Shown: positions 7,373 through 30,750 of the stretch, piece by piece | How positions within the stretch are numbered: position 1 is the stretch's first letter | Layout of the letters: each line of letters starts with the position of its first letter | DNA from: a virus | Strand: one strand, 5' to 3' | IMG/VR virus record: IMGVR_UViG_3300025086_000142 | Location: 1-30,750 of that record | DNA: 30,750 nucleotides | Made by a program: the position numbers and the translations under genes | Notes under the pieces: model-generated | What the model was told of the DNA's origin: nothing | The model's database searches: none | The model's input: only the letters and a program-made list of their open reading frames with translations

Positions 7373-8080
7373 ATGGTAGGAATAGGCAGAACAAGCAATG
7401 CTTTCTTTTTTGACGGTGTTACTGATTCTATCCTTATCCCTCAAGGTAACTTTACCAGCGTAGGACCAGCACGAGATATTCTCGGTAAAACTGGTAAAGG
7501 TAGTGATGAGTTTACAAATATCAATTCTATGATAAATGGTGGTTTTGCCATTGAAGCATGGGTTATCCCCGATTGCGGTGGAGTAGTTGCACATCGAGAT
7601 GGACAATTTACACTTGAGTTTGGAACGGTAGATACGCCCGGACCCGCAAAGTTTACTGTTCAATTATCATCATCAAGTGGTACAATACCTATAGTGTTAA
7701 GCACTGCTACAGCAACATCTACTCGATGGGATGGTGTGGTATATCCACCGCAAGAAGTTGGGGGCATACACGATACCTACAACCGTTATTTAGAAGGCAG
7801 TAGTGCATTACATAACGATGCTACAAATCTTAATTTTAAACATCGAGGTTTGTATCATATCGTTGCTGGCGTAACAAGAGGTTCTGTATTTTTATATGTT
7901 AATGGGTTAATTGTTGCCAGTCAAAAAATTAGTAATAACACGGTAATAGCAGATTCAACAGACCATGTTTACATTGGCGGTAAAGGTGGAGAGTTTAGAG
8001 GGGCTATCGAGGCTATTCACTTTAACAGTGATTTTGATTCTAATATGGCTGTAGCCACTGTTCCAGTCAACAGTGTTGAG
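7373..8080 (+). other. N-terminal LamG/concanavalin-like domain of the giant protein
   Basis: Residues 1-236 follow the order of a LamG-type jelly roll: an opening strand with FFFDGVTDSILIPQ, then FAIEAWVIPDCGGVVAHRDG, a long loop, HRGLYHIVAGVTRG, VFLYVNGLIVAS, and a closing HVYIGGKGGEFRGAIEAI. The DG.....IP, W and YVNG elements are characteristic of such domains, which in phages and secreted proteins often bind glycans. Ligand binding here is inference. Confidence 0.6.
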
Positions 8081-11000: not shown

Positions 11001-14000
11001 TTTCACACCCAAAGATATTCCCAACTGCCGAATCAGCGGCCAATGAGCATCGAAACATGAAAGATGTAGTGCGCTATCGTCGTGTTTTCTTGTCAAACAA
11101 TCAATGGGGTATTTACCAAAACGACCCTGCTACAGACGGCTATATTCGTATTCCAACAAATGTATCGGGTGGGTTTACTGGTGGTTTTTCGGAGGACTTC
11201 TTTACAGATGCAAGTATAGGTGACTTACTGTATGTAGCCGGTGGCTATCGAAACGAAACACTGATGCCTATTGCATCGGATGAAACTACCCCATCATCCG
11301 ACTTGGAAAATCGCTCACCGTATTACTATGATAATGCGAATATGCAAACTCAAGGCGGCAACCTCGATTACGGATTGCGTCAATATGTAAGCGCAGTTGA
11401 GTTCAAAGAAGGCCCGCTTACCAATCCCCACGCCCCTCGCATACAATCAAAGACGGCTACTGCTACTATCATAGATGTAGCGACATTATTTAGTTTAGTC
11501 TTTATCACATTAGACGATGCTTCGGCTTTTCCCGAAGGTCCAATTCTTGATGCTGTAATGAACGGCGATACCGCCGCTGTTTCCGCTGGTGATACCATCT
11601 ATGCCATAGAAGTTCTTGATGATGAGCCATTTGAAATGTATTATTTTGGCAGTATTACTCTTGATGACCCGAATAAAGTGTTGTGCATAAATGCCAGTAA
11701 TAACGATTTAAGTAATTTAACAGGTAAAAAAATAAGAATTAAAAGTGCAGGTCACGCTGTTATGGGTATTACAGACCCGCAAAATGCATACACTAATGAA
11801 GATATAACAAGTACTTTTAGACCAAGTGTAAGCGGTGAAATATGGACTTACACGGTGGCTGTGGGTGACATTGGTGGTGCAACTACACTTTCAGTAGCAC
11901 CTACTACTGCTACTCTCATGCCGCAAGCAAATACTGTTGGTATGAACTTAAGACCCGGTGATGACATATACCGTGAAGCGGCTGGTGATGCTACTGAAAT
12001 AGATTACATCGGTAAAGTTTTGTTTAGCGAATCACCAATTGCTGGTAGTGGACACGCTACAAACACAGTAATTACTCTTGAAACTTTTACACTTACCAGT
12101 TCAATTACCGCCTCCGATAAAACGGTCACAGTTCCCGACACTACAAGATTGCGTAAGGGGATGGCTATTACTGGTACAGGTATAGACACTGGTGCTTTTA
12201 TTGACAGTATCACCAATGCGACTACATTTAAAATGAGTCATAATCCAACAAGTAGTGGTACAACTACCCCGACACTTACCTTTGGTGGTAACGCACACGC
12301 TATTTCCAGTGGCGACAAACTCCGTATCAATGCCAGTTCAGTATTAGCAGAAGACCCCGATGCTATCTTAAATCTTGACTGGTTAAACCCTTATGCTCAA
12401 GGTGGCCTACGCAATGGTGATACCATATGGATGAACATGACAATGAACAACCCACATGCAGTAGAAGGGTTATTTGCAAAATCTCGTGGCGTATTAAATG
12501 ACAGTCAAGTATGGACAGGTTTCAATGGCGGTAGAGGTGCATTAGCAAACCGCCCTCGTGATTCTATACCACTTGAAAACTTTTTAATTGGAGATACATG
12601 TCTTGAAACAGCAAACAATTTTGTTCAACATGTAAACAAAACGATTGAATTGAATTACGAATCAATGGGGCTGTTATCATCTCAAGCACCCACAGTTGCT
12701 TATCTTGACCCTTATCTTGCTAAGAAAGGTCATGCACGAGTATTGATGTTTGATGTAGCACACGACCGTGAGTTCATCGCATTTCATGATTTACACATGC
12801 AGGTTCAATCCAGTGCCGCTACACCGCACATTGGGTTTGGTCGGCACATTGTAACTGCGGCAGGTGTAACTAATCTTGATAAGTTTACCATGTCGCAAAA
12901 TGGTGGTGCGCCACATTACTTTACCACTCAAATAGATGTAGCAAATGGATTCCCAAGCGAAAATCCGTATATTCGTCGCACTCAACAATCAAAGTTTATT
13001 GAAAGTGCTTATGTTCATAATATCGGTGGTAATACATCCGAGGACATGATGAGTACAACATCGGAGGGAGAAAACCCTGTATTGACTTACATTACGCAAA
13101 ATCCCGCTACTGCTGGAACAGGGGCGGCAAATAATAACTCACACTTAATGGGTAAAAATCACGGTCATTATGTACACACCGGTTTAATGCACGAAGGAAC
13201 AAGTAACTCATTTACAGTTGCAGATAGCACATTACCTCGACTTGAACCGGCAGTTTCTTCTGTATATTGGGCTAATGAGAAACATAAACAATCAATAAAA
13301 ACAACTGCTATATTATCATCTTTAACTCGTGATTTAAAATTACATCGTAAGAGTCACGGTGTAGCCACTTATTCACTTCGTGATTCCAGTACAATGATGG
13401 ACACACCCGATGGAACAAGAGCCATCTCCGCATTCCTTTGCTTGAAAGGTATTCGTAATGAAACGCTCACCCTTACAAATCACGAAGAAAGCCGATTGCA
13501 ATATCTCGACCATTGGAGTAAAATGGACTTCGTGCGCCGACTTACCATTGACTGTGGAGAAGTAGGAATAAAAGAGGGTGTTACGGATATTGAAGCCGCC
13601 GCAAGAGAGATTGTTCGTTTAATCAATCAAGGTGGCGCAAAGAAAGGAACTACAAGAAACATTTCGGTTAATCGAAGTCTTACACCCAATTCCGCCATAA
13701 CAGCAACCAGTAATATACTACCAAGTTTTGATAGATTACAAAACGACGCTATTATGCAAGCGGTAATGACGGGTTCTGTTTACGACCCCGCACCGTGGTG
13801 GTTTGCTGATGAAGCATTTGATACTCAAGACCGTGGTACTCACATGGGTTACATGCGAGCGCATTTAGGGCGTGTTGTTGAAGACCTTGATGGTAATACA
13901 GGTCATTCAGTTATTATTCACTCTACAATACCGGGTGCAAGCGGTCGTAATTTCTGCACATGGTTGGATAACAGCAAAGGACAATCTCAATACAAACCTC

Positions 14001-17000
14001 AATTCCTTATCGGTCATGGTGGGCGATTCCGAAACTTTTGGTGTCAACCGGATGAAACAAGCGGTGAAAACATGCACCCTGCACCTATGCCGATTAACAA
14101 ACACGGCAGACCGTTTGCACCAATTACTACGCTACGAGAATATGTTACGCAAGAAGACGCTGATGATAATTTCTTAAGCAATGGTGACTTTGCTGTAAGA
14201 AACAATTATTTATCCAATGCTCAAAAAAGAGGGGTTTCAGCCTTTAATGGTGGTGGTATGATTGCTAATACAATTAACGACGAGTCATTTGAATCGCAAA
14301 GTGCATCAAAGACTCTTGTTGAAGGGTTAAGAACTGGAACTCAAGCATTTGGTCGAGTTAATTTTGGTGGCATGGTCGCCAGTGGTATTCCGGGTTTTGC
14401 CCCCGATGCGGGTGTATGGGGTCTTGGTGAGCGAGGTAATACTGACTTTGATACTCGATACTCCGATGCTATAACTACTGGTAGCACAGCACCAACGGCA
14501 ATAACTGATTACTCCGACCATGTTACTGAATCTCAAGTTGAAACAGTGGGTAATGGACAACTTTACGGATTCCAATTTGAAGACCACCGTGGTAATACAT
14601 ACGGTGTAAGATTCATTTACCGTAGAATGGGTGATAACTTTAGCAATGATAATACTGTTTTACCGCCTACTCTTGATAATGAAATATGTGTTTATTTCGA
14701 TGACCGAGATGTAGGGCAGGGTGGACTTACCATTGGTAATCACATGCTTGGACACGGAGATGCTACCGGTCGTATTGATACAACCGGCCACCTTACAGAA
14801 GCATCATACCGTGGTAATCGCTGGAATGGTGTACCTTCACCTTCTGTTGGTATTGATGCGAGTGTTACTCTTGGAAATGGTCTTTTGACAGTTGTATTAC
14901 ACACACCATTCAACGGAACTACAGAAGGACTTTCTATACTTGCTAATCATCCCGACATACTCGGTTATCTTGGATTCCCAAAAACAAATGGCCTTCTCCA
15001 AATCAATGATACTTTTACTGGCACTACAGCAAAAGGTATTGTCGGACACACTTTTTCTTACACCCATCGAACAACAAGTATTGCTGGTTTTAGTAGTGAT
15101 GCAACTTGCGATTACAACGACGACCCTACTATTACAATGGATTCAACGGCAGATTTAGTAGTTGGAATGGGCGTTGTAGGCGTAGGTATTCCCGATGGTG
15201 CTACTGTTGCATCAATAACTAATACAACAACATTTGAATTGAGTGTATCAACCACTGGTGGGTCAAAATCAAATCAAATATTGATGTTTACACCGGTACA
15301 TAGATTTTATGGAATAGTAGGTGACGCATTTACTTCTTCACATTATGTCGCTAATAGGGCTGGAACAACCGAGATACATGATGCCGCAAGAGTTCAACCT
15401 CATGCAAGTAACAATACAATGCGTGTTTTACTTTCACCCCGAATTAACTGGACTACACTTGTTACTGATGAATTGATGGCGGCTGTAACAGCGGCGGCGA
15501 TTAACCATGACAATCCAAGTGCCACTCTTAATTTTGATTGTCGGGGGATGTATGCCGCTGATGGATTCACATTCGGTCAATGGGGTGTAGCCGCTGATGC
15601 TATTAAGATACGAGCGCATAACCCGTCAAGAATGACTATGCCTCTTGCAACAATGTTCGAGGCTACATTGCATAAAGACTGGGGCATACACGCCGCCCAT
15701 CTTGAATATGGAGAATACGACAAACTTCACGAAACTACTGGCGGTTGGTCTATAGTAACAACTGATGCTATTAACAATCCATACAGCGATGCTGAACTTG
15801 ATGCAAACCGTAGAATGGATGTAGGATATTTACCATACACGGTATTACAACTACAAAGTAAAGGTCGGGGTTATAATGCAAATACAGCCACTCCTTTACT
15901 GGTTGATTCAGCCAATACCCCTGTATCGGTTACTTCTTGGCGAAGAAATCTCAAAGGTGAAAATTATACATCTATTACCGGCGACCACATATTACCTTGT
16001 TTGAACAACCCAATACTTTTGTTTGAATCATACACACACTCCGGTAATGTTTTCCTCGCAAAAACCAATAAAATAGCACACGCTATGATACCTGCTGGAC
16101 AAGAAGCAGACACTATAGGGGATGCTGATGATGCTGATACCCATGCTAAAGAAGGTTCATTTGGTGAACTACTTGTATATAGATACCCTACTGATGATGG
16201 TATCGGGATTGCCGCATTAGAATCAATTAGAGGTAGCACTTCTCATACTTCTTTGACAAATGCATTTGGTAATGGACATGGGCGATGGAAAACTCACTTT
16301 TATCAAGATATAGGTGATGATTTTATACTTACCCGATTTGCTCAAACCAACCGGTCACTCGGACCCGGTTTTGAGCGTGATGCAATATGCGGGTATCGTT
16401 CTCACGGTAGCGTTGATAGTGAACCTATTATCTTCTTGCGTGGTGCAAGAGACAGTATAGACCACAGTGTACCGCTTTACTTTGGCGGTGGGTTCACTGG
16501 TGTTACACTTGACATCAACGATGGAACGCAAAACGATTACTCATCATTCTACACCCACCCCTACTCCGGTGGGCCAACAGGAACAGCGGGTATTCAAAAC
16601 GCCAATGAAATTAGCGGGTCATTCGCTATGGTGGACTGTAATGCACTGCTCGCTTTCTTCCCCGGCACAGCCCTTCTCAATCAACACCGAGGGTCAATCA
16701 ACAGCCCAGTGTCGAACAAAGACAGCATCCTATCACCCGACCTACGAGGTGGTAATTTAGATGACAACTTCACTTTACTTAATGCGGCGGCGGCTGGCGA
16801 TGTACGAGCAAGATACGCCGCAGGTATTGTTCGCCAACAGCCTGTACCGTTGGTGCTTCGCTTTGCTCATCCTACCGCCCGCTATCATGACAGCCAACCT
16901 ATTGTAGATGCTACCTGCGATTATAATAATGACCCAACGATTACAATGGATTCTACAACGCAACTTGTTGTAGGAATGACGGTCACAGGTACAGGTATTC

Positions 17001-20000
17001 CCGATGGGGCTACAGTATCATCCATTACCAATGCTACCACATTTGAGTTATCGGTTGCTACTACTGGTGGCTCGGTGTCAAACGGAACTTTAACATTTAA
17101 TTATATTGAAAATAAAACTACTTACCTTGTCTATGGGCCGGGTCAAGCATTCCCATTCACCGAAGACGACAACTCCAATGCGGCTGTCGAACCTCACCCC
17201 GGATATGTTGTCACTACCGGTAACACTTGGAGTAAAGTTCCTCACAGTAATTATCTACCAAATGAAATTACCAACAATGATAATTTATACGGCCCGCCCG
17301 ATTCTACTTACCAAACTGCAAGAAACCGTTACCATTGGCGAACTACGCTTAACTGGTCGCCACCGCAAGGTATTCCCAATGTAGGTTATTTACAGCAACG
17401 ACCGGAACACGGTTCTCACTATGGCGAAGTCTTTACCAACCCAACAAGTGGTAAAATTACCAGTGATAATAAAGCAGATTATTGGAAAGCCCACCCTTAC
17501 AAACACTGCGCAGTATCTTATTACGGTATTGCCATGAGTGCAGATATGACATTTCACATGGATGGTGGGTATCATCCCGGTGGTTCATGGCTTGACAACC
17601 AAATCTCGTTCAACCCCCCAAATCCAAACAGTAACTATCGTTATGCTTTGGATGCGGGTAATCAAGTCAACGCTACAGCATACCGAGTATCGGGTGTGAT
17701 GGGTAAGATTATTCTTGAAGGTGCGAACAGCGAAACTGCGCTTAACTTTGACACTGATTATATTGTAGTAGATGGAACACGCTGTCAAAACGGCGAAGAA
17801 CTGGCGACTATCATCGGTCAAGCAATCAACGAAAATCCCGGTAAAGGTGCGCTTAAGGCAATGGGTGGAACATTCCTACCATCTATGGGTAACTCAATGC
17901 GCCAAGACCGATATGGTTGGATTGAAACAGGTAGTTCCGGTAGTATTCTTTATCAAAATATGACTGGCGATTTAGATGTTCGACTACTTGCAGGTACCGC
18001 TTTAGATAACTCAAAGGTGTATGTTCAAACAGTTATTGACGGTGCAACTCAAGAAGAATTAGAACAAATACCTATGAGTGGATGGCTTCGTACACCCGAT
18101 GGTGGGCGAGACCACACAGTAGGCGCAGGGGCCGTTGACCCAAGTTACCATGCTGGTCCTACATGGGGATGTTATCACAGTCGAGAAATATACAATGATA
18201 GCGGAACATATCGTGTAAGGTTTTACCTTGCACCAAATCGAATAAGCGGTCAACCTTTACTTGAAGACCGTACTACATGGCATAATAAATGCGAAAGTGC
18301 AACTTTAACTTACCCTTCTCCGGGTGCTGTAATTGACCCAAACCCGCCAAGTCAACCCGAACCTATTCAATACCCACCACTCACAAAGTTATTTGTTTGG
18401 TCGAAGGCGGGTGTTCATCGCTTTAACAATGAAAACGAAACCCCTCGTAGCCACATGACACAGGCGCACTTTGGTGGATTGGTGGATGCTATTGACCGCA
18501 CACGCCCTGTAGGGGCTGTAGGATGGGCGGGAGAGCGTTATTCCTACCTCAATTCGCTCAAGGTAGATACAACCGTCTTTACCGACGCTACATGTGATTA
18601 CAATAACGACCCTACAATTGCAATGGATTCTACCGCAAAACTAAAAATTGGTATGTTGGTAAGTGGAACAGGTATTCCTACGGGTGCTTATGTCCGTAGC
18701 ATTACCAGTAGCACTGGATTTGAATTATCAGCATCAACAACAGGAGGTTCGGTAACAAATGGCACACTTACCTTTACCACTAATCTTTACGCCGCTGGAA
18801 AGGGTGCTTGGCATCCTAAGATGGGCTTTACTCCGTATGGTTCATCAGCCTCATGTATGAGTGTATTAGGACACCTACCAAGTTCCTATCCAATGTATAA
18901 CAGCCCCGAAGCAAGTCCGAGAGTCAACGGTCAAGAAAGTGTTTCCAATACTTCTTACGATGTTGCGCTTACTACACCTTATACATGGAATATCGGTTTG
19001 GCCGGAGGTGCTGGATGGTACGCGGCTTACGACTTTACAGATGTTGAAAGTACAAAAGACATAATGAGTGCAAAACCTCCACACATGCGAGAAACTGACA
19101 CTGATACTACATTCATACTTAACAAAAAATTACATCACCAGCAAGGAGTATTTAGTCGAGCAATGCTTGTCATCAGTAATGAAAGTGAATTGGCTCTTGT
19201 TGCTAAGACTGACCGTGATGGTATCAAAGCAACCGGTGATTGGTTGTCGGTCGTATCGAAAACTCGTGCTGGCATAGCCGCCGCTACTGCTATTACATTC
19301 GCTGGTACAACACGATGGGATGAACGATTCCATGATGCTGAACGATACATAGCCCCTGCCAACGCTGGTCCAAATGTCGAAGCGTTAATTGCTACAGGAA
19401 CGGCCACACCTACTGCTGATGTTCCGTCTGCGGCTTATGTATTACACACAGCATTAACCAGCGACCAAGATACTAATTTGTTTAACGCCGAACCTTGTTT
19501 CGCTGAAACAGGAGATTTGTTCTTTGACACTGATATTAGCCCCGGTTCTATCAATCTTGAGGTTGCTACTGCTGTTACTCGTAATATTACAAAAGAACTT
19601 GAATTATCAAGCAGTGATGCTGAAATTGATAATTATGATTACACTAATGATGACTTTTGGCTTGGTGACACCAACGGTTACAAGTTATCACAGCGTACAC
19701 CTGCTCAAAACTTTAGCGTTGAGCATGTAGTTTGGAAACGGATGGATGGTGGCAACCTTAGCCTACCTGCTTCTAATGCACGAGGATTGGGTGCTGTTCC
19801 GTTTGTCACTCGTGTAACAGGTAGTAATGCCTACACCACTGGTGAAAAATTATACGGTAACAACCGCTTTACCTTTGAATCAACCAATAGTGCAATGTTC
19901 CCGATTATCCAAGCGCAAGAATTGTCGCATCCGCAATTAGCCGCCCGTCACCCCGATTTACTGCGTAATATTCTTGAAATACCAAATGAAGAGATTCAGT

Positions 20001-23000
20001 TTGAAAGTATTACAGTAATTGATGATACAGGCCAAGAACATAAAATCGAGGGTGGCTCACCATTCGGAACAATTATTCGGGCGTATTCGCAAATACCCGA
20101 CCGAACAACGCAGGGATTAGCACCAGCAATTGCAGGTAGCGGTGTCACACCGAATATGAAAATACGATTACCCGACCCCGATTCAATACCCGGTAACTTG
20201 GTAGTTCGTTCCGGCTTTGACAGACTACAAGCCTATCAAACTGAAACAATGGGTACAGGTGGTATGATGACTAAATCCACCGTAGAACATATGTTCGATA
20301 ATAGTTTGGTGAGTCCAAACCTCGGCCCTACTTACAGCGACCATAACTGGGAACATCTTTCTCAAAATACACCGTTCCCCGAAAGTAAAATGACAGGCTG
20401 GCAAAGTTCCACAGGAAACGCACCTCTTGAAACAGCCTATGAATTACACGACCGTACCTTGTACTTCCATGTAACAAAAATGGGTAACACCAACACTCAC
20501 AAGCATCCTGTCATTTATTCACATAGTGCTGGTGTAGTTAATCACGAACTTACAGGTGTGTCTTTTAGTGGCACTACTTTAACAGTGAATACAAGTGTAA
20601 ACTCCGCTGTCTATGATTCTACCTTTGGAAACAAAGAACGAGTAGGAGAGCGCAGATTCCTTCGATTATACAATCCGACTACCGATGAAGGCGGCGTAGC
20701 ATCCTTTACCGGCATTAGTGGCTCTACATTCACTGGTTGCGTGGGTGATGAAACATTCAACAAACTCGTTCTTAGTAGTATTACAGCACTGAAAGTAGTT
20801 CCATCTTATTACATTCCCGCTGGTAGCACCCGATTCTATGGTTCACGCCGTATTAGAGACCATGCAGAAGTGAGTGGTAACAGCCCCGATATGGCCCACA
20901 CACACTATGTCAATTACTCGGTAACGGGTGAAGAGGCGACTACAGGGTATTCGATATACAGTAAACCGCAACTCACCCCTGCGCCTATACCCCGTATGGG
21001 TCATCACTTTGTCAACGCAACAATGGCTATGTTACCCGGACATTGGGCGCACCCTGCTTATCAAGGATTATACGACAAACACCGAGCCTGTCGCTCGGCT
21101 ACTTTACAATCATTTGAACATGAAGATATGGAAGAAAGAGGTATGAACACTTTAGTTACAAGCCGAGATACTTTCCCTACTTATGACCCGCAATTGGTCT
21201 TTGGCTCATTAACTGCTACACCGAGTGGCCCAAGTGATATACACGGCGGTGGATTCTCATTGATGTTTGAAACCAAGTTGCGTAACGATGGTTATGGTGT
21301 TCTTGCATCCGAGGGGCAAGCCGGTGTTGTTAATTCAAAGGGTGGACACACCGTTGTTCTTGAAGCCGCAGGTACTTACACATTGAAAGAACACTTCCCC
21401 GACCCCGCCGAAGTTGGTGCGTATCAAATTATTATCCAACCTAATATGCACAGTTCACAGTTTATTGGTTATCATGCTAATGGTCCTGCTGATAACAGTG
21501 CCACTCCCGATGGTAGTGTAAATGAATTAACAAGTCAACAAGTTGCTCTCGTCGTAGGTATTCGTGAACCCGACAGTGCCACAGGTGCTTACGCTCTCGT
21601 ATTAGCAAACGCTACGATGGCTGATGTAAGAGGCTGTGAAGTATTCATCAACGAATTGATGATAGACCATGACCCCGATTACGGTAGTCATTTCACCAAT
21701 ATCCCACCGCTGATGTTGTATAATCCATTTGGTGTACAAAGCACAGAATCACCAGCGTTTGTTCGTCGGTCACTACCCTACTTACCAAATATGTTTATTG
21801 ATTCAACACCCGGATTTACAACCAACATTCCGTGGTGGTCTATCGTACACAAGGTTGCCCCCGATAACGCTGATGCTGACCGCTTCAATCATTTGTCTTG
21901 GCATCGGCTTGATAATTACTATGAGTTCTTAAGAGCGAGTAATGGTTCTATTGCATCTCAAATTACACTTGCCGGTTATCCAAGTTTCTATCCCGACTTA
22001 TACTCCGAGATACTTGAGAATATTAGTCTTACACCTGTGTGTAATGTAGTAAGTGTAGCATCTACAGTTATCACAGTAGATGATGCACGAGGATTCCCTA
22101 AGCAACCTTACTATGGTATGGTGCTTGAATACATTGATGCAACAGGAATACGACGAACACATACTTACACTGAACGCAGTAGTTATGATTCAAGTAATAT
22201 GAATAAACCTAAGCAATTTACTATTGTAGCCAACAGTGACTTTACCAGTAATTTAACTGCTGGAACAGGAATACGCCTAAGTCGAGCGTATGATTTTAGA
22301 CCAGCAAATACAATTTTAAATGACAGTGAAACAAGTATCATCACCCGAACATTACCTCAAACCTTAGCAGGTAGTCGTGATACCAACAGCCTACACATGG
22401 CTGATGCATACCTTTGCCTGTGGCATCCAAATCTCGGTCGCCCTCACACCTTTTACAGCGATGCAAGTCGAACATGGTTGAACCCATTGACTGACCGAGC
22501 CATTAACCAAAAGCCACTCAACAGTATGCCGGAACACTTTGAAACGGTTCACTACCATGACGCTACTTACTACGCCAGCATGGGTCCGTTTGCTTTGCGA
22601 ATGAAGACAGCCATGCCGCCTACCGAAGCGCAATCAACATACTACACTGCTACATCAGCGAGTGTGAGTAGTACAACTGTAACTGCTACAGGTACTATAA
22701 TGGCCGGATGGCCTACAAGTGGAACAAACACTGTATATGTCAACAGTGGTAGCGAAGAAGAAACTTTTACCTACACAGGTGGTGGTGCTGGCGGTACAAC
22801 ATTAACAGGATGTGTTAATGTTATAGGAACTCCATTGACTACAATGGCGAGTGGTAATCATTCACTGCGCTACTACAAGACCGCTGACCTCGCCGCTGAT
22901 GGTTCACACACTCGTCAAGTTGTATCTCACACTGGTAATACCATTACAACAAATGGTGGTGAGCCTATCGGAGATGAGGATTACATCTTTGTTGATGGGC

Positions 23001-26000
23001 GTATGTATCAAGTCAACGGTGCTGTTACAGAAGGAGATACAACTATTGTAGTGTTTGATACTTTACCTACTGAAATTACTGTAGGTTCTATCATTTACAC
23101 TGGTGCAGACGGCGCACCCGAAACTGCTCAAACAATTGATACCACTATCGGTACAGGGCTTATGCAAGGTGGACAGTCGGACAGCACCAATACAGCCACC
23201 AAGAGTATGCTCAATCACTTTTGGCCGAGTGGTAGCCGTGGTGGACCATTGGTAAGCCGTCTTGATGGCTACGCTTATGTTTCATCATCATGGGATTATC
23301 CACGAGACTACGGCTTCGATGGGCCTATTTGGTCCGATGCTGACGATGATGGTTCGTATGCTGTAAGTAGCGGTATCAGTAAATCATCATACGATGGTAT
23401 CAGTAACCCAACACGCCCACGCCCATTCGGTTATCGCTTTGGCCTACGCCAACCATACAACAAGCCGCAGTGGTCCATGTATGGATTGCGAGCATTGCGT
23501 GAAACAGCAGTAACAGCCACCAACGCAAGTATAGGTTATACTCATGGCCCATTGGTGCAAACTGAAACTCAAACATCAACATACGCTGGTGGTAGCGGTA
23601 GTTCAACCTCCACTTTCCCGAACACCTACACTGGTATTATGGAACGACAAACCAACTTCTCCGGTATGCTTGGTGTTGACAAACCGGAGTGGCAGGTTCG
23701 ATACAGTGACGGTGTTCGCTATACCCGCCCATTCGGTTGCCCTGTACGCACCCTACGCAACAGTGCTACTGTATTGCGTGACTGGTGGGGCGATGGTAAC
23801 GGTAAGGGCTTAGATTCAATTGAGGATGCCGCTAAGTATTACATTGTTGATTGGTGGGGTAATACTCGTGGTGAGGATATTCGCCGGTTCCCTGTCCGTT
23901 CATTCGGTATTCGCCCATCATGGGATGCAGGTGACGCATACGAATACGACCGACGCAATGACCGTACGCCGTATCAGCGAATACATAACAACGGAAAACA
24001 CCTTGTCAATTTGAAAGGGCTTACCAATGCGGCAGACTCGGCATTAAGTATTTCAGCAACCGTACCGAGATTTGGTGGTCGTTTAAACAACACTAATAGT
24101 AATGATTCAACAACTTTGGTTGATGTATTCATGCCATCAAACGCACAGCGTGTAGGCGACATGGGTAATGGTCGAGGTATTCGATACCCAACTCAATTCA
24201 ACGAGGATGTCTTAACCGCATTGAGTGAACCAATACACACGACAGGACTTGTTCTCTCTCATCACACCGCCGAGCCAATCCTCAATGATGGATTTATTCG
24301 TGCAAGAAACGATACACTGCAAGCCGACGAAGTGCCTCGTGGTATCAGTTCACGCTTGGAGATTGCAGAAGACGGACTACTCAAGCCCGAAGCAGTAGTA
24401 AGTGACCGCATGGAAAACATCGTCGGTGATTCACCGCATAAGGATGCAGTGAGTCGCAGTAGTCCTCGTATTGGTCTTGACACCGAGAATCTACAAGGTG
24501 TTGACACTAATCAAATCATCATCAACACCGAGGCGCATAGCCTACACACAGACCGCAATGTAGGACAGCGTGTTATATTGCAAGGAGGTTTTACCACCGC
24601 TTCGCAAACTATTGGTAACTACGACCTTACCGCACTCAACTTTGGAGGGCAACCTCAAGGTGGCGCAATGCGTATGAGTCACACCTCCAACTTCAACCCG
24701 CTTGGTGGAACTTACCTTGCTGAAACCCGTAACTACCTTTCACCGATTGATGACAGTAGTTGGGGAGATATTCCTAAAACCGATATGGAGTTATGGCTAA
24801 AAGCCGATAGTCTTGATTTGGCTGATGGTGCGGCTGTAACTTCTTGGGAGGATGTAAGCGGTAACAATAAAGATTTCACACAGGGAACAGTAAGTTCACA
24901 GCCGGACTTTGTAGCAAGTGATAGCGATTACAATAACAAACCACTTATTCACTTTGATGGAGATGACGCTTTATCTACTCCTTTCAGTGCTGATTTAAAC
25001 CCGAATAACTTTACAGTGTTTGTAGTTTCAACTGTTGATTCGGATGACGGTAATTATCACGGAATAATAGACACTACAAACGGTAACACTGGATGGCTTT
25101 TGTATGCGAGAATGTCGGGTAGCACCAACTACTGGCAATGGAGAACAGGAACAGGTAGTGGACAGACTATAATATCTGCTGGAAACGATACTGTAGTTCC
25201 TAATACTCCTTCGATAGTCACTTTGAAAATGGCTGGTAGTGATGGTGCGGGTGGTGGAACAACTACTCAAACTCTCTATGTAAACGGTGCTTCTGCCGCA
25301 ACATCAAGTGCGGTGTTTACCAAGAAAACTGCTACTACTGCTACTCCTATATTGGGTGATGTTGGTTCTTTTGAACTGACAGGTCAAATGGCGGAGGTAA
25401 TTATTTATTCTTCGGCATTAAGTGATACTGACAGACAAAGCGTAGAAGGATATTTAGCCAGTAAATATGGTATCAGTGCATCATCTGTATGGAAAAGTAG
25501 CAACCCGTATCTTACTGATACAAATGGTGATACAAGAGGGAATGTTGTTGATAAGACAATCACATACATGATTCGCCCTGTTCGCTTGATGGATAAACAA
25601 CACATCGAAATGTTCCGTTCCAACCTCAACTTGCACTCATCAGCCCCGCAATACGGTAGTAATTACTTCGGTGCTACCGCTGGTGGTAAATATGGTTTGT
25701 ATTTGTATGATGTTGACAATGGTAAGGCTACCGCTGGTGCTTATATTCGTGCTTCAAATCCCGATACAAACCCTCCATACATACCCGCTTATTACATGGA
25801 CATCAGTGCAAGTGACACTGTGCCTATGAGTAAAGGGCCAAAGATTATCGGAACAGGTGATAGCGGCTTTGACAGTAGTAAAATTGACAATGAAGTTACT
25901 CGTGTAATTATCAGTGAAAATACTTTGCAACACTACCGTTCCGACGCATCACGCCGTCGTACATCAGTAGAAAACGATGATGCTGTTGTTCGTAAGGATT

Positions 26001-26098
26001 ACAGCGTACAACCACGCTTCTCCCAGTCTCTTCATCCAAAAGGACATAAAGGGGATGTCTCCTACAACTCAACAGACCACAGTGGTGACGGCGCATGA
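7373..26098 (+). CDS. Giant 6241-residue tail-tip / host-recognition protein
   Basis: One uninterrupted frame of 18.7 kb begins at ATG 7373, with GAGGTG 5 bases upstream, and ends in an ATGA overlap with the next gene. Position after the distal tail gene implies a tail-tip or central fibre role. Residues 1-236 resemble a LamG/concanavalin-type lectin fold (AFFFDGVTDSILIP; GGFAIEAWVIPD; HIVAGVTRGSVFLYVNGL). Residues about 5804-6034 are a second such domain (DMELWLKADSL; LIHFDGDDALSTPF; AEVIIYSSALSDTDRQSVEG, ending YLASKYGI). Three close copies (2576-2639, 3179-3242, 3738-3802) and one divergent copy (about 1573-1638) of a module with TGTGIPDGA-type sequence lie between. FTGC-type beads occur near 20575 and 22663. 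The rest is Asn-, Thr-, Gly-, His- and Tyr-rich without recognised enzyme motifs. There is no signal peptide or membrane segment, and few Cys. Its exact function is unknown; carbohydrate binding is inferred from the lectin folds. Confidence 0.85.
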   Translation: MVGIGRTSNAFFFDGVTDSILIPQGNFTSVGPARDILGKTGKGSDEFTNINSMINGGFAIEAWVIPDCGGVVAHRDGQFTLEFGTVDTPGPAKFTVQLSSSSGTIPIVLSTATATSTRWDGVVYPPQEVGGIHDTYNRYLEGSSALHNDATNLNFKHRGLYHIVAGVTRGSVFLYVNGLIVASQKISNNTVIADSTDHVYIGGKGGEFRGAIEAIHFNSDFDSNMAVATVPVNSVETTGMYRFEEPLDIVEESYDFNAFTVAANGTTTTITVAAADAQALIARLTGKAYDSSSPTTTFTATPYSMGNYKVNDFVSTPGTEATLAIPHTPYNILINPGSINRNTEKPNASPPERARIESINGSTGVITVSSIHIDFILGTGGKRGLLHSRTADVDNYFVVVNADLLIDNGTGKPYQPPHYGSQIFDKTGQMVLDESDFAQHGLVYSTQMATTDNSPNNPFAVTWPATLDALYQVGHSGRHRYSHVTGHEYMRRYPKPAYLSVDQMMDGSADVVEMAYDSNTKGISNLFSMNALSDFYEESTQVTMANFINSTTATFVVSNGLPESKEQAIAIGGTNFDYRPFMLKGPVPEFGDINEDTRLYHLRPESVSRIALLKVPTLQSTHNLAPYVEIHYNAIDLTGASMSKTTPCLMIEKTVPSGNFVLTGTTTVLDVIEADLADATKDTTLFAPGGVIMVGNAYTSTTLHLETPHSLVGDNTGGFELDSELDFSRCPVNYTPPNDATAEGNTTPQHLTASHNNGVHDSAYHKLCIEPLSSNTVKKMTEKGIQFIKPAAVTNSGTGVFDEGSTNDATNNFEMFDIIDNRQANTHEYSAVIYAQPSDRTRTNQLSKMRTNLTEGNSPSIASLLYLMSRTRIRSVREDEDPESNEKIVTVLATGIAEGLANQNVNITGSGSPDSHIVKEIEPNAPVVTVTLGGPGQGAINTKPTNDPSPLMRLPGSTRRSCAVQSVNVNTDIDRQYMSVQPLNNLSTDMASWGTYCFPKVGRIYLEDGASAAYSSKTGAGFNFTVDTSALDIITQRSFIDADGVAYATFHEWLNATGLLSNSTPNEYSLVATIYNDPHFGDDNLCEDGSTVNDRLFQSMDTVNHDYQLGTQYASTRAMVEIPFFPKQFFDHAPSGIFPGPDNSMKVHLDATYTAHSWNPTPVGRRANDVAVSDRNAHSAYGFNANSDEHISSATITQIKVSSNFTDIYVSHPKIFPTAESAANEHRNMKDVVRYRRVFLSNNQWGIYQNDPATDGYIRIPTNVSGGFTGGFSEDFFTDASIGDLLYVAGGYRNETLMPIASDETTPSSDLENRSPYYYDNANMQTQGGNLDYGLRQYVSAVEFKEGPLTNPHAPRIQSKTATATIIDVATLFSLVFITLDDASAFPEGPILDAVMNGDTAAVSAGDTIYAIEVLDDEPFEMYYFGSITLDDPNKVLCINASNNDLSNLTGKKIRIKSAGHAVMGITDPQNAYTNEDITSTFRPSVSGEIWTYTVAVGDIGGATTLSVAPTTATLMPQANTVGMNLRPGDDIYREAAGDATEIDYIGKVLFSESPIAGSGHATNTVITLETFTLTSSITASDKTVTVPDTTRLRKGMAITGTGIDTGAFIDSITNATTFKMSHNPTSSGTTTPTLTFGGNAHAISSGDKLRINASSVLAEDPDAILNLDWLNPYAQGGLRNGDTIWMNMTMNNPHAVEGLFAKSRGVLNDSQVWTGFNGGRGALANRPRDSIPLENFLIGDTCLETANNFVQHVNKTIELNYESMGLLSSQAPTVAYLDPYLAKKGHARVLMFDVAHDREFIAFHDLHMQVQSSAATPHIGFGRHIVTAAGVTNLDKFTMSQNGGAPHYFTTQIDVANGFPSENPYIRRTQQSKFIESAYVHNIGGNTSEDMMSTTSEGENPVLTYITQNPATAGTGAANNNSHLMGKNHGHYVHTGLMHEGTSNSFTVADSTLPRLEPAVSSVYWANEKHKQSIKTTAILSSLTRDLKLHRKSHGVATYSLRDSSTMMDTPDGTRAISAFLCLKGIRNETLTLTNHEESRLQYLDHWSKMDFVRRLTIDCGEVGIKEGVTDIEAAAREIVRLINQGGAKKGTTRNISVNRSLTPNSAITATSNILPSFDRLQNDAIMQAVMTGSVYDPAPWWFADEAFDTQDRGTHMGYMRAHLGRVVEDLDGNTGHSVIIHSTIPGASGRNFCTWLDNSKGQSQYKPQFLIGHGGRFRNFWCQPDETSGENMHPAPMPINKHGRPFAPITTLREYVTQEDADDNFLSNGDFAVRNNYLSNAQKRGVSAFNGGGMIANTINDESFESQSASKTLVEGLRTGTQAFGRVNFGGMVASGIPGFAPDAGVWGLGERGNTDFDTRYSDAITTGSTAPTAITDYSDHVTESQVETVGNGQLYGFQFEDHRGNTYGVRFIYRRMGDNFSNDNTVLPPTLDNEICVYFDDRDVGQGGLTIGNHMLGHGDATGRIDTTGHLTEASYRGNRWNGVPSPSVGIDASVTLGNGLLTVVLHTPFNGTTEGLSILANHPDILGYLGFPKTNGLLQINDTFTGTTAKGIVGHTFSYTHRTTSIAGFSSDATCDYNDDPTITMDSTADLVVGMGVVGVGIPDGATVASITNTTTFELSVSTTGGSKSNQILMFTPVHRFYGIVGDAFTSSHYVANRAGTTEIHDAARVQPHASNNTMRVLLSPRINWTTLVTDELMAAVTAAAINHDNPSATLNFDCRGMYAADGFTFGQWGVAADAIKIRAHNPSRMTMPLATMFEATLHKDWGIHAAHLEYGEYDKLHETTGGWSIVTTDAINNPYSDAELDANRRMDVGYLPYTVLQLQSKGRGYNANTATPLLVDSANTPVSVTSWRRNLKGENYTSITGDHILPCLNNPILLFESYTHSGNVFLAKTNKIAHAMIPAGQEADTIGDADDADTHAKEGSFGELLVYRYPTDDGIGIAALESIRGSTSHTSLTNAFGNGHGRWKTHFYQDIGDDFILTRFAQTNRSLGPGFERDAICGYRSHGSVDSEPIIFLRGARDSIDHSVPLYFGGGFTGVTLDINDGTQNDYSSFYTHPYSGGPTGTAGIQNANEISGSFAMVDCNALLAFFPGTALLNQHRGSINSPVSNKDSILSPDLRGGNLDDNFTLLNAAAAGDVRARYAAGIVRQQPVPLVLRFAHPTARYHDSQPIVDATCDYNNDPTITMDSTTQLVVGMTVTGTGIPDGATVSSITNATTFELSVATTGGSVSNGTLTFNYIENKTTYLVYGPGQAFPFTEDDNSNAAVEPHPGYVVTTGNTWSKVPHSNYLPNEITNNDNLYGPPDSTYQTARNRYHWRTTLNWSPPQGIPNVGYLQQRPEHGSHYGEVFTNPTSGKITSDNKADYWKAHPYKHCAVSYYGIAMSADMTFHMDGGYHPGGSWLDNQISFNPPNPNSNYRYALDAGNQVNATAYRVSGVMGKIILEGANSETALNFDTDYIVVDGTRCQNGEELATIIGQAINENPGKGALKAMGGTFLPSMGNSMRQDRYGWIETGSSGSILYQNMTGDLDVRLLAGTALDNSKVYVQTVIDGATQEELEQIPMSGWLRTPDGGRDHTVGAGAVDPSYHAGPTWGCYHSREIYNDSGTYRVRFYLAPNRISGQPLLEDRTTWHNKCESATLTYPSPGAVIDPNPPSQPEPIQYPPLTKLFVWSKAGVHRFNNENETPRSHMTQAHFGGLVDAIDRTRPVGAVGWAGERYSYLNSLKVDTTVFTDATCDYNNDPTIAMDSTAKLKIGMLVSGTGIPTGAYVRSITSSTGFELSASTTGGSVTNGTLTFTTNLYAAGKGAWHPKMGFTPYGSSASCMSVLGHLPSSYPMYNSPEASPRVNGQESVSNTSYDVALTTPYTWNIGLAGGAGWYAAYDFTDVESTKDIMSAKPPHMRETDTDTTFILNKKLHHQQGVFSRAMLVISNESELALVAKTDRDGIKATGDWLSVVSKTRAGIAAATAITFAGTTRWDERFHDAERYIAPANAGPNVEALIATGTATPTADVPSAAYVLHTALTSDQDTNLFNAEPCFAETGDLFFDTDISPGSINLEVATAVTRNITKELELSSSDAEIDNYDYTNDDFWLGDTNGYKLSQRTPAQNFSVEHVVWKRMDGGNLSLPASNARGLGAVPFVTRVTGSNAYTTGEKLYGNNRFTFESTNSAMFPIIQAQELSHPQLAARHPDLLRNILEIPNEEIQFESITVIDDTGQEHKIEGGSPFGTIIRAYSQIPDRTTQGLAPAIAGSGVTPNMKIRLPDPDSIPGNLVVRSGFDRLQAYQTETMGTGGMMTKSTVEHMFDNSLVSPNLGPTYSDHNWEHLSQNTPFPESKMTGWQSSTGNAPLETAYELHDRTLYFHVTKMGNTNTHKHPVIYSHSAGVVNHELTGVSFSGTTLTVNTSVNSAVYDSTFGNKERVGERRFLRLYNPTTDEGGVASFTGISGSTFTGCVGDETFNKLVLSSITALKVVPSYYIPAGSTRFYGSRRIRDHAEVSGNSPDMAHTHYVNYSVTGEEATTGYSIYSKPQLTPAPIPRMGHHFVNATMAMLPGHWAHPAYQGLYDKHRACRSATLQSFEHEDMEERGMNTLVTSRDTFPTYDPQLVFGSLTATPSGPSDIHGGGFSLMFETKLRNDGYGVLASEGQAGVVNSKGGHTVVLEAAGTYTLKEHFPDPAEVGAYQIIIQPNMHSSQFIGYHANGPADNSATPDGSVNELTSQQVALVVGIREPDSATGAYALVLANATMADVRGCEVFINELMIDHDPDYGSHFTNIPPLMLYNPFGVQSTESPAFVRRSLPYLPNMFIDSTPGFTTNIPWWSIVHKVAPDNADADRFNHLSWHRLDNYYEFLRASNGSIASQITLAGYPSFYPDLYSEILENISLTPVCNVVSVASTVITVDDARGFPKQPYYGMVLEYIDATGIRRTHTYTERSSYDSSNMNKPKQFTIVANSDFTSNLTAGTGIRLSRAYDFRPANTILNDSETSIITRTLPQTLAGSRDTNSLHMADAYLCLWHPNLGRPHTFYSDASRTWLNPLTDRAINQKPLNSMPEHFETVHYHDATYYASMGPFALRMKTAMPPTEAQSTYYTATSASVSSTTVTATGTIMAGWPTSGTNTVYVNSGSEEETFTYTGGGAGGTTLTGCVNVIGTPLTTMASGNHSLRYYKTADLAADGSHTRQVVSHTGNTITTNGGEPIGDEDYIFVDGRMYQVNGAVTEGDTTIVVFDTLPTEITVGSIIYTGADGAPETAQTIDTTIGTGLMQGGQSDSTNTATKSMLNHFWPSGSRGGPLVSRLDGYAYVSSSWDYPRDYGFDGPIWSDADDDGSYAVSSGISKSSYDGISNPTRPRPFGYRFGLRQPYNKPQWSMYGLRALRETAVTATNASIGYTHGPLVQTETQTSTYAGGSGSSTSTFPNTYTGIMERQTNFSGMLGVDKPEWQVRYSDGVRYTRPFGCPVRTLRNSATVLRDWWGDGNGKGLDSIEDAAKYYIVDWWGNTRGEDIRRFPVRSFGIRPSWDAGDAYEYDRRNDRTPYQRIHNNGKHLVNLKGLTNAADSALSISATVPRFGGRLNNTNSNDSTTLVDVFMPSNAQRVGDMGNGRGIRYPTQFNEDVLTALSEPIHTTGLVLSHHTAEPILNDGFIRARNDTLQADEVPRGISSRLEIAEDGLLKPEAVVSDRMENIVGDSPHKDAVSRSSPRIGLDTENLQGVDTNQIIINTEAHSLHTDRNVGQRVILQGGFTTASQTIGNYDLTALNFGGQPQGGAMRMSHTSNFNPLGGTYLAETRNYLSPIDDSSWGDIPKTDMELWLKADSLDLADGAAVTSWEDVSGNNKDFTQGTVSSQPDFVASDSDYNNKPLIHFDGDDALSTPFSADLNPNNFTVFVVSTVDSDDGNYHGIIDTTNGNTGWLLYARMSGSTNYWQWRTGTGSGQTIISAGNDTVVPNTPSIVTLKMAGSDGAGGGTTTQTLYVNGASAATSSAVFTKKTATTATPILGDVGSFELTGQMAEVIIYSSALSDTDRQSVEGYLASKYGISASSVWKSSNPYLTDTNGDTRGNVVDKTITYMIRPVRLMDKQHIEMFRSNLNLHSSAPQYGSNYFGATAGGKYGLYLYDVDNGKATAGAYIRASNPDTNPPYIPAYYMDISASDTVPMSKGPKIIGTGDSGFDSSKIDNEVTRVIISENTLQHYRSDASRRRTSVENDDAVVRKDYSVQPRFSQSLHPKGHKGDVSYNSTDHSGDGA
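12091..12289 (+). repeat. Divergent copy of the TGTGI module in the giant gene
   Basis: Residues about 1573-1638 of the giant protein include MAITGTGIDTGAFIDSITNA followed by TTFKMSHNPTSSGT and TLTFGG. These line up with the three closer copies downstream (VTGTGIPDGATVSSITNA, TTFELSVATTGGS, TLTF), but the leading CDYN.DPTI segment is absent. It appears to be an older member of the same repeat family. Confidence 0.6.
15098..15289 (+). repeat. CDYN/TGTGI module, copy 1
   Basis: This in-frame module of about 64 codons (residues 2576-2639) begins DATCDYNDDPTITMDSTADL and continues VGVGIPDGATVASITNTTTF and ELSVSTTGGS. It is closely related in protein sequence, and visibly in DNA, to the copies at 16907 and 18584. 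Modules of this G-x-G-I-P kind are common in phage virion proteins and probably fold as small beta units. Confidence 0.8.
16907..17098 (+). repeat. CDYN/TGTGI module, copy 2
   Basis: Residues 3179-3242 begin DATCDYNNDPTITMDSTTQL and continue VTGTGIPDGATVSSITNATT, ending SNGTLTF. The module sits between two stretches unrelated to those flanking copy 1, so it behaves as a movable insert or spacer within the giant protein. Confidence 0.8.
18584..18778 (+). repeat. CDYN/TGTGI module, copy 3
   Basis: Residues 3738-3802 begin DATCDYNNDPTIAMDSTAKL and continue VSGTGIPTGAYVRSITSSTG, ending TNGTLTF. It is the most changed of the three close copies in its middle part (LKIGMLV for LVVGMTV) but retains both ends. 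Confidence 0.8.
24782..25474 (+). other. C-terminal concanavalin-like lectin domain of the giant protein
   Basis: Residues 5804-6034 match the familiar phage and bacterial LamG/concanavalin pattern: MELWLKADSLDLADGAAVTS with WEDVSGNN, SQPDF, PLIHFDGDDALSTPF, FTVFVVSTVDSDDG, TLYVNGASA, and the closing AEVIIYSSALSDTDRQSVEG then YLASKYGI. It lies about 207 residues before the end of the protein. Its sequence is cleanly bounded (SWGDIPKT before, SASSVWKSS after), which suggests a discrete, possibly exchanged, domain. Glycan binding is inferred from the fold family. Confidence 0.75.
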
Positions 26099-26409
26099 TG
26101 GAACCAATGAACGAGGCTTGGGCTTTGCTAAAAGCAAAGAAAAAGAGCAAACCGTTTCATGGGTATAATCCCAACAAGCATCATCGAAAAGGGGGCTTGA
26201 ACGCTAAAGGCCGAGCAAAGGCAAAGCGTGAACAAGGCTCTAATCTCAAACCACCTGTAACTACCAAACCGAGTAAACTCAAGCCCGGTAGTAAGTCTGC
26301 AAAGCGACGAAAATCATTCTGCGCCCGCATGACCGGTGTTAAAGGCCCAACCAGTAAAAAAGGTAAATTAACACCGAAAGGGGCTTCTCTTAAACGGTGG
26401 AACTGCTGA
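26095..26409 (+). CDS. Small basic protein with KSFCARM...KRWNC motif (DUF6321-like)
   Basis: The 104-residue product is strongly basic (many Lys, Arg, Gly, Ser) and ends in a conserved block: SAKRRKSFCARMTGVKGPTS, then KKGKLTPKGASLKRWNC. I recall this SFCARM...WNC ending as a small domain of unknown function common in tailed phages (DUF6321); the family name is from memory. The two Cys are at the motif centre and at the last residue. The N-terminal half looks disordered and could bind DNA, RNA or an acidic partner. ATG 26095 overlaps the giant gene stop (ATGA), with GGTGA 6 bases upstream; a second in-frame ATG follows immediately. It lies between two tip genes, so it may act in tip assembly or be a passenger in the operon. 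Confidence 0.75.
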   Translation: MMEPMNEAWALLKAKKKSKPFHGYNPNKHHRKGGLNAKGRAKAKREQGSNLKPPVTTKPSKLKPGSKSAKRRKSFCARMTGVKGPTSKKGKLTPKGASLKRWNC

Positions 26410-29365: not shown

Positions 29366-29412
29366 ATAGAAGAAGAAAAATTATTTTTAATTACTTTCAT
29401 TGTTATTTTTCT
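29366..29412. terminator. Bidirectional T-rich terminator between convergent units
   Basis: After the + strand stop at 29350 the + strand has two T5 runs (29384-29388 and 29406-29410, the second followed by CTT). On the minus strand the A-rich segment 29366-29380 reads as TTTTTCTTCTTCTATTTT just past the stop at 29387. Archaeal termination relies on such T-rich tracts without a strong hairpin, and none is seen here. The + strand signal overlaps the end of the minus strand gene. Confidence 0.55.
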
Positions 29413-29572
29413 TAATTGCGGTGTCTTGCCAAAAATGCCCGCATTGCCTACATTGTAGTAGTAAGAAACGCTCACGCTCATCATCAAGGTAGCGAGCCGA
29501 TATGCGTCGTGCTATGTGCCAATGGGCGCAAGACCTACACTTTACTTTCAGTTTTTCCAACAGCCGCCCCAT
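29387..29572 (-). CDS. Zinc-ribbon protein, Ogr/Delta- or TFIIS-like pattern
   Basis: The 61-residue product from ATG 29572 reads as a basic helix (MGRLLEKLKVK), then CRSCAHWHIARRISARYLDD, ERERFLLLQ and CRQCGHFW. The two CxxC pairs are about 30 residues apart and should bind one zinc ion. The spacing and the RxSxRY...QC pattern recall the Ogr/Delta late-gene activators of P2-like phages, while CGHFW and the DE near the second pair recall the TFIIS-type zinc ribbon of archaeal transcription factors. I cannot decide between these. ATG 29572 is preferred because GAGG lies 9 bases upstream; upstream in-frame starts are ATG 29599 and GTG 29623. The gene overlaps the 39-residue gene by 38 bases. 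A role in transcription control is plausible but inferred. Confidence 0.65.
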   Translation of the reverse strand: MGRLLEKLKVKCRSCAHWHIARRISARYLDDERERFLLLQCRQCGHFWQDTAIKKNNNESN

Positions 29573-29654
29573 CGTAACACGCCTCGCAAAAATCTCCATC
29601 AACAAGAACCGAAACTCTTTCACCGCAAAATACGCAAATGAACCTCTTCTTCAT
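29535..29654 (-). CDS. 39-residue CxxC...CxxC zinc-ribbon protein
   Basis: A short frame starts at ATG 29654-29652, overlapping the chaperonin stop as ATGA, and ends at TAG 29537-29535. It encodes MKKRFICVFCGERVSVLVDG, then DFCEACYDGAAVGKTESKV. Two CxxC pairs 13 residues apart make a compact zinc ribbon or knuckle. The overlap with the chaperonin gene suggests translational coupling. A basic N-terminus and acidic middle are visible; the function is unknown. The Cys placement and the exact ATGA junction argue that it is real despite its size and its overlap with the next gene. Confidence 0.6.
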   Translation of the reverse strand: MKKRFICVFCGERVSVLVDGDFCEACYDGAAVGKTESKV

Positions 29655-30750
29655 TGCGCTGGCCTTCTTGCTATAATGTCATCAATACGCAGTATTGAAT
29701 TAGTTACTTCACTGGCACTTAACACTGCTTGACGAACCAATTCAGTAGGTTCGTAAACACCAAGTTCCATCATGTTACATACGCCCCCATTGTGTACATC
29801 GGGGCCAATCTCACGGTTGCCTTGTAGGATTTCGTGGCGGATAGCAAGGATAGTGTCGAGTGGGTCATGACCGGCATTCTCGGCAATAGTGGCAGGGATG
29901 CACTCTAATGCGTCTGCAAAGGCTTCAATCGCCATCTGCGCTCTACCACCTATCTGTGCCGCATGTTGCCGTAGATGCGATGACATACGGGCGTATGCGT
30001 TCCCACCGCCGACAACAAAATTACCGTTCTTTAACACTAAAGATACTACACCGAGTGCGTCATCGAATCCACGCTCAACTTCTTCAAGTGTGTGAGATGT
30101 TGCACCCCTTAGCACGAGTGTTGCCTCATCGCTCTTGACATCACCTTGAACAAAGAGATACCATACATCGTTATGCTTTTGACGCTCAACGGTGCATTCT
30201 GTCGCCTCTTCTACTTCTTCGGGTGTTTGATAGATAGTTGCCCCTGTAACCTTGCTCAATGAGCGTAGTGTTGATTCGGGAACCCTGCGAGCAACCATGA
30301 TGTTATGCTTCTTGAGATGAGCGCATACATGGTCGTTGACCGCATCACGAGCAAAGACAAGTCCACCCTTCGGTAATACTTTCACGAGTAATTTAGCCGT
30401 TGAGATGAGGTTTGCTTTACCCGATGATTTGTATGATTGAAACGATTGAGCATCCAACTGCACTTGTACATTGTCTTCACTCTTCTCGTTTTCAAGACCG
30501 GTGTTCAACAACACTACATTGGAGTAAGCATCATCACCTTCAAGCACATAGTCCTTGTTTACAATCGAACCTTCGTAGAGATAAGAGTCATCAAGTGAGC
30601 CACCGGGGAATGAAACAACCTTGACGCTTTCAGCATCACCGGCTTTCTCAACTGCTGATACACATAGTTCAGCGACAGCATCAAGAGAGTTCTCAAGTGC
30701 TTTACCTGTGATAGCAGTTTTAGCGACTGATACCAATACATCACGCTTAT
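29651..30750 (-). CDS. Thermosome (group II chaperonin) subunit, 5' end outside the window
   Basis: The frame is open to the right edge, so roughly the first 150 residues, including the GDGT ATP-binding motif, are missing. Visible from the TTG at 30736 are: the helix VAKTAITGKALEN; apical domain sequence GGSLDDSYLYEGSIVNKDYV, VVLLNTGLENEKSED, MVARRVPESTLRSLSKVTGA; then ERGFDDALGVV with the Asp expected to act in ATP hydrolysis; GGGNAYARM; FADALECIPATIAENAGHDP; and the closing ILRIDDIIARR. These are thermosome hallmarks, and the chaperonin folds proteins in an ATP-driven double ring with a built-in lid. The usual Glu of GGGAxE is Tyr here, and the Gly/Met-rich C-terminal tail of cellular thermosomes is absent. 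It likely heads an operon with the two zinc-ribbon genes. Viral thermosomes are known from marine archaeal viruses. Confidence 0.93.
   Translation of the reverse strand, partial: KRDVLVSVAKTAITGKALENSLDAVAELCVSAVEKAGDAESVKVVSFPGGSLDDSYLYEGSIVNKDYVLEGDDAYSNVVLLNTGLENEKSEDNVQVQLDAQSFQSYKSSGKANLISTAKLLVKVLPKGGLVFARDAVNDHVCAHLKKHNIMVARRVPESTLRSLSKVTGATIYQTPEEVEEATECTVERQKHNDVWYLFVQGDVKSDEATLVLRGATSHTLEEVERGFDDALGVVSLVLKNGNFVVGGGNAYARMSSHLRQHAAQIGGRAQMAIEAFADALECIPATIAENAGHDPLDTILAIRHEILQGNREIGPDVHNGGVCNMMELGVYEPTELVRQAVLSASEVTNSILRIDDIIARRPAQ

Follow-up and report, generated by a model that had tools for sequence, protein, structure and literature searches.

The closest described counterparts of the gene analyzed here are the CPxCG-related small zinc finger proteins of archaea, such as Brz of Halobacterium and HVO_2753 and HVO_0758 of Haloferax, which have fewer than 100 residues, a single domain, and two Cys pairs 7–40 residues apart (PMC2253796, PMC11241148, PMC10716476). 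Brz adjoins the gene that it regulates and controls the transcription of that neighbor (PMC2253796). Some haloarchaeal C(P)XCG proteins bind no zinc, a distinction that AlphaFold2 cannot make (PMC11241148). Small CxxC proteins are frequent in haloarchaea and in tailed haloviruses (PMC7911831, PMC7230728, PMC11241148). The tailed haloviruses Hardycor1 and Serpecor1 encode many of them, and the halovirus genes lie outside the assembly module in gene runs overlapping by 4 nt (PMC7911831, PMC7230728). Small zinc proteins are already common in archaeal viruses, and the 39-codon gene described below, zr39, is of this known kind.

The chaperonin-zr39-MGRL operon

The window, that is, the whole stretch of viral DNA analyzed (30,750 nt), carries at one end a minus-strand operon of chaperonin, zr39, and a predicted zinc ribbon gene, MGRL, which closes the operon and is convergent with tail genes. 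The features are as follows.

29651–30750, minus strand: thermosome (group II chaperonin) gene, 3' part only, truncated where the window ends; PF00118
29535–29654, minus strand: zr39, gene for a putative 39-residue zinc-binding micro-protein; comparative conservation, pN/pS, structure model
29387–29572, minus strand: MGRL gene, predicted 61-residue zinc ribbon (C-x2-C-x25-C-x2-C-GHFW), start ATG at 29572
29535–29572, minus strand: stretch of 38 nt shared by zr39 and MGRL, each read in its own frame
29582–29585, minus strand: GAGG, Shine-Dalgarno-like, 9 nt upstream of the MGRL ATG, in the Glu-Ala codons of the second zr39 CxxC

The zr39 frame had been pointed out in an earlier note on this DNA, and the position given there is exact. 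The product, MKKRFICVFCGERVSVLVDGDFCEACYDGAAVGKTESKV (39 codons plus stop), contains two CxxC pairs, CVFC and CEAC, and the start ATG sits in an ATGA whose TGA is the chaperonin stop. The next gene overlaps zr39 in another frame, as the note had described, and its product (CRSC, CRQC) is predicted to be a zinc ribbon. That zr39 had been overlooked as lying below the usual gene-calling length is not assertable, because its 120 nt exceed the minimum of some gene callers (90 nt by default in Prodigal). The window chaperonin matches PF00118 with an E value of 1.2e-76 over profile positions 122–489, and the full-length proteins of relatives reach 1.5e-125.

Comparative evidence that zr39 is a gene

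The comparison drew on 80 viral loci that share this chaperonin. The zr39 sample comprised 34 loci (the window, L084, and L102 included) representing 22 distinct DNA sequences. The earlier note had named frame disruption or Cys loss in close relatives as grounds for dismissing the gene; all 34 loci keep the frame and the four Cys. Cys7, Cys10, Asp19-Gly20-Asp21, Cys23, and Cys26 are invariant, and the DGD[FW]C core is unchanged throughout. Substitution in the zr39 frame is strongly asymmetric, with pS 0.607 versus pN 0.229 among the 22 distinct sequences and 0.432 versus 0.124 in the window group; the +1 and +2 frames lack such asymmetry. The pN/pS ratio is 0.29–0.38 in the zr39 frame and about 0.75–1.2 in the shifted frames, and purifying selection is seen within each clade.

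The full pattern, C-x2-C-x8-D-G-D-F-C-x2-C, occurs in 32 viral contigs, and in 31 of these it is zr39 adjoining a chaperonin. The remaining match, in L096, is a recombinase-like frame unrelated to zr39. A collection of genomes from 84,980 species yielded one match, the frame of which is broken by an internal stop. Small two-CxxC ORFs of any kind arise at a mean of 0.6 per window-sized Markov shuffle. A chance ORF would be in keeping with the shortness of the frame and with a predicted structure of only moderate confidence; against it stand the conserved frame, the invariant Cys, the low pN/pS, and the near absence of the pattern elsewhere. Because 31 of the 32 pattern contigs carry zr39 beside a chaperonin, the frame is not a chance ORF; the comparative data refute this reading, which we regard as almost certainly wrong. 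Judged by these comparisons, zr39 is a genuine, conserved gene, and it illustrates that comparison alone can securely establish a gene of fewer than 40 codons.

zr39 as an optional insert between thermosome and MGRL

MGRL lies behind the chaperonin in 80/80 chaperonin loci (one of them cut by the contig end), and the chaperonin is directly upstream in 80/80 loci retrieved by MGRL alone. Across the 80 loci MGRL varies in length from 51 to 75 residues with an invariant MGxL, four Cys, and Trp. Of the 80 chaperonin loci, about 33 carry zr39, which in L057 and L067 has a diverged form. On this comparison the constant unit is thermosome plus MGRL, a conserved, predicted zinc ribbon that accompanies the viral thermosome at all loci examined, and zr39 is an optional insert in the gap between them. 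In L234, which has a distant chaperonin, the order chaperonin-zr39-MGRL is kept with a 32-nt overlap.

The presence of zr39 on the chaperonin tree requires five gains or losses by parsimony, three of them forced by well supported branches. The chaperonin of L036 is 95% identical to that of L034, which is without zr39, and its MGRL is 97% identical to that of L037, which has zr39. L036 is thus a recombinant with its breakpoint at the gene junction where the insert sits, and therefore recombination at the chaperonin-MGRL junction adds or removes zr39. Since it has been lost in many close relatives, zr39 is dispensable in some hosts. In L171 and L188 the gap holds small Cys-rich proteins unrelated to zr39, suggesting a recurrent insertion slot. 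Readthrough from the chaperonin into MGRL, which are in frame in the window group, was considered and rejected, the spacing differing between lineages.

The coupling of zr39 to the chaperonin put forward in the earlier note thus stands only in part. A conserved tiny two-CxxC gene does lie in ATGA overlap with a viral thermosome, and a second tiny putative zinc protein is indeed packed behind it in another frame. A specific coupling is not supported, however: more than half of the loci with a thermosome have no zr39, its relatives occupy other early-gene junctions, many without a chaperonin, and in L056, L196, L202, and L203 an extra gene parts the chaperonin from zr39, which still overlaps MGRL.

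A probable ribosome-binding site for MGRL within zr39

The MGRL ATG is embedded in Asp-Gly codons of zr39 (gATGGg), and in nearly all overlapping loci the start falls within Asp/Asn-Gly codons. Synonymous constraint in the 38-nt overlap, which had been suggested as a test, was not found: in the window group the MGRL codons shared with zr39 diverge more, not less, at synonymous sites than those downstream (pS 0.483 for codons 2–12 versus 0.276 for codons 13–44). Divergence in the overlap tracks the codon positions of MGRL, the frame of which dominates, and the last residues of zr39 are therefore dictated by MGRL. The zr39 proteins of L027/L028 are without this MGRL-dictated tail.

The constrained element is instead a GAG codon just upstream of the overlap. 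At the Glu of the second CxxC, the distinct sequences that have Glu there use GAG throughout (19/19), compared with GAA 25 : GAG 3 at the remaining Glu codons of zr39 and a GAG share of 40% in the neighboring chaperonins. L057 and L067 also have GAGG at this distance from MGRL, and several loci that lack zr39 have it close to there. Where the insert is missing, MGRL keeps a start of its own, frequently together with a Shine-Dalgarno-like motif. The GAGG inside zr39 is probably the ribosome-binding site of MGRL, a suggestive reading, as the sequences compared are not independent. A search for promoters and terminators at the 3' end gave nothing beyond chance. Chaperonin, micro-protein, and predicted zinc ribbon together offer a compact natural case in which stop-start coupling and embedded ribosome-binding sites of archaeal viruses can be tested.

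Predicted structures and relation to known families

The zr39 model has a Cys hairpin followed by a C-terminal helix (residues 24–32), with a pLDDT of 78, and suggests a putative one-domain, treble-clef-like arrangement of a zinc knuckle, a hairpin, and a helix bearing the second CxxC. Its fold matches are weak (GATA, RING, ClpX zinc-domain, and ribosomal L24e-like; Z about 2–3, best 3.1), and searches against profiles of solved structures returned irrelevant matches only, with E values of 0.4 or worse. MGRL is modeled as a β zinc ribbon (pLDDT 80) with RPB9-type ribbons among its best fold matches (Z about 4, best 4.1; Foldseek E above 0.2) and weak RPB9-type matches among solved-structure profiles. 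Neither model supports a specific function.

zr39 satisfies the motif of Tarasov 2008 (CPxCG, CPxCx, or CxxCG with a second Cys/His pair 7–40 residues away, in fewer than 100 residues), having CVFCG and, after 12 residues, CEAC in 39 residues; the strict CPxCG-like motif is found in only 6 of 22 zr39 relatives. Like the CPxCG proteins zr39 is small and single-domained, and like Hardycor1 and Serpecor1 the virus encodes small CxxC proteins. zr39 differs from the CPxCG proteins in belonging to another sequence family, whose DGD[FW]C core is invariant, in being viral, and in having neighbors that overlap it at both ends. The zr39 39-mer had no tblastn match in 50,697 phage records, so homology to halovirus proteins is unsupported; in phage records the chaperonin likewise went unmatched, and MGRL had no credible match.

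The zr39 protein of the window passes no Pfam cut-off and has no PHROG match. There is weak profile similarity to DUF7564 (PF24445, found in Haloferax volcanii; best E 0.0018, 6 of 21 members), for which the cut-off is 32.2 bits and no match was obtained in the window record at E 0.001. Weak similarity was also detected to DZR_2 (PF18912; best E 0.0056, 12 of 21 members), where zr39 scores 16 bits (E 0.011), under the cut-off of 27 bits, and so is not a member by score. The window MGRL likewise passes no Pfam cut-off. It shares with the RPB9, TFIIS, and archaeal TFS zinc ribbons the layout C-x2-C, about 25 residues, C-x2-C-G-x-x-W. Unlike TFIIS and TFS, it is a single domain and does not conserve the acidic D-E pair of the hairpin: the first D (D30) alone is nearly invariant, and the residues after it vary.

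A wider set of DGD[FW]C genes

DNA patterns for DGD[FW]C-x2-C-W identified further tiny genes (28–63 residues) in other viral contigs, nearly all of them among early genes. zr39 thus appears to belong to an unnamed family, marked by DGD[FW]C, of tiny putative zinc proteins at viral gene junctions, which lies outside all tested profile libraries. The viruses carrying it are probably magrovirus-like and infect marine archaea. Homology across the set, resting on a short motif, is likely, not proven.

Family genes lie between a clamp-like gene and PolB in L140–L145, L243, and L257 (the clamp-like identity being based on PHROG 947, E 2.3e-5, for L140 only), after GroEL-type chaperonins in L245, L246, L247, and L251, ahead of one in L255 and L260, and ahead of an RFC-like gene in L248. 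G013, G014, and G018 encode a thermosome, yet their tiny gene is 8–9 kb away, between the clamp-like gene and PolB. For several contexts the record contains no chaperonin at all. Most family starts are –4 to +2 nt from the upstream stop (ATGA, TGATG, or very short spacing), and the gene that follows often starts at –4. There is one copy per record in 15 of 20 searched records and one each in 19/19 records of another set, these having been picked because they carry the family.

Some of these loci have other features. In L252 (IMGVR_UViG_3300030333_004311) a DGDFC tiny gene at about position 1685 lies between two family B DNA polymerase pieces, the upstream covering PF00136 positions 38–199 and the downstream 221–353, with GTGA/ATGA overlaps at its two ends. 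In L140–L145, at about 3780–3995, a second small two-CxxC protein (MRRDVCWLCGGKLIW...) is encoded directly ahead of the DGDWC gene. G013, G014, and G018 have a weak MGRL-like match on the opposite strand, beside or near the thermosome.

Possible roles of zr39

We favor, with a probability of roughly 0.5, the view that the one-domain, putatively zinc-binding micro-protein encoded by zr39 would serve as a small interaction or regulatory factor of the early phase, acting in trans and not as a chaperonin-specific cofactor. A regulatory role is preferred because small CxxC proteins are so frequent in haloarchaea and haloviruses and because Brz controls its neighbor; the CxxC micro-proteins of these organisms are most likely the appropriate analogy. 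Viral records have a single copy of the gene, placed at one or another junction of the early operon. Termination-reinitiation on the abundant chaperonin message would yield the micro-protein, and the body of its gene would supply the GAGG and the start codon for MGRL. The protein itself would act in early viral gene expression or replication, with RNA polymerase, nucleic acid, or a replication protein as candidate partners. The weak fold matches and the loss of zr39 from many close relatives count against this view. Adjacency to two unrelated chaperonin classes does so as well and could mean a chaperonin role after all. Such a role, as a specific accessory (a substrate adaptor or lid-binding factor) held at a fixed ratio by the ATGA coupling, would explain why family genes follow thermosomes (the window group and L234) and both follow and precede GroEL-type chaperonins. 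We nevertheless think it unlikely, given the many thermosome loci, near relatives included, that have no zr39, the thermosome viruses that keep the tiny gene far from the chaperonin, and the contexts with no chaperonin on the record. A broader proposal, which we hold to be quite unlikely, is that the DGD[FW]C gene is a mobile, single-copy junction micro-gene of marine archaeal viruses with start-stop overlaps on both sides and an embedded ribosome-binding site for the next gene, preferring chaperonin (group I and II) and replication genes and serving as a shared partner of these machines.

Two other explanations give the peptide little or no role in the virus. zr39 might be mainly a cis-acting leader carrying the MGRL ribosome-binding site, chaperonin translation setting MGRL output. 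The GAGG with its invariant GAG codon and the placement of the MGRL start in Asp/Asn-Gly codons fit such a leader, but the four Cys and DGD are strongly conserved across contexts with different downstream genes, and MGRL manages with its own start where the insert is lacking; we consider it distinctly improbable. Still less do we incline to a micro-gene without function for the virus, neutral or selfish, and spread through recombination at gene junctions. The patchy distribution (at least three gains or losses, five by parsimony), the L036 breakpoint, and the variety of junctions, a split PolB among them, would suit such an element. Purifying selection in each clade and the single copy per record do not, and neither recombinase nor repeats were seen adjoining zr39.

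The source virus and other features of the window

The window encodes a tape-measure protein. In its relatives replication-type genes and tail genes occupy opposite strands, and two of them (L006 and L010) encode PolB, a thermosome, and ERCC4 and PD-(D/E)XK nucleases. A strand layout opposing PolB, thermosome, and nucleases to tail genes has been described for magroviruses of Poseidoniales (PMC10768690). Assigned by gene content alone, the source is probably an uncultured, magrovirus-like marine virus with archaea as presumed hosts. Our literature search found no paper linking a small zinc protein to a magrovirus chaperonin.

Between the tail genes, positions 7373–26098 of the plus strand form one uninterrupted frame that runs to 6241 codons and takes up about 60% of the window; a LamG-like stretch near its C terminus was noticed by eye. 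At 26095–26409 on the same strand lies a gene for a small basic protein that matches DUF6321 (PF19846, E 5.5e-17) and several PHROGs and that seems to be conserved in relatives, again downstream of the giant gene.
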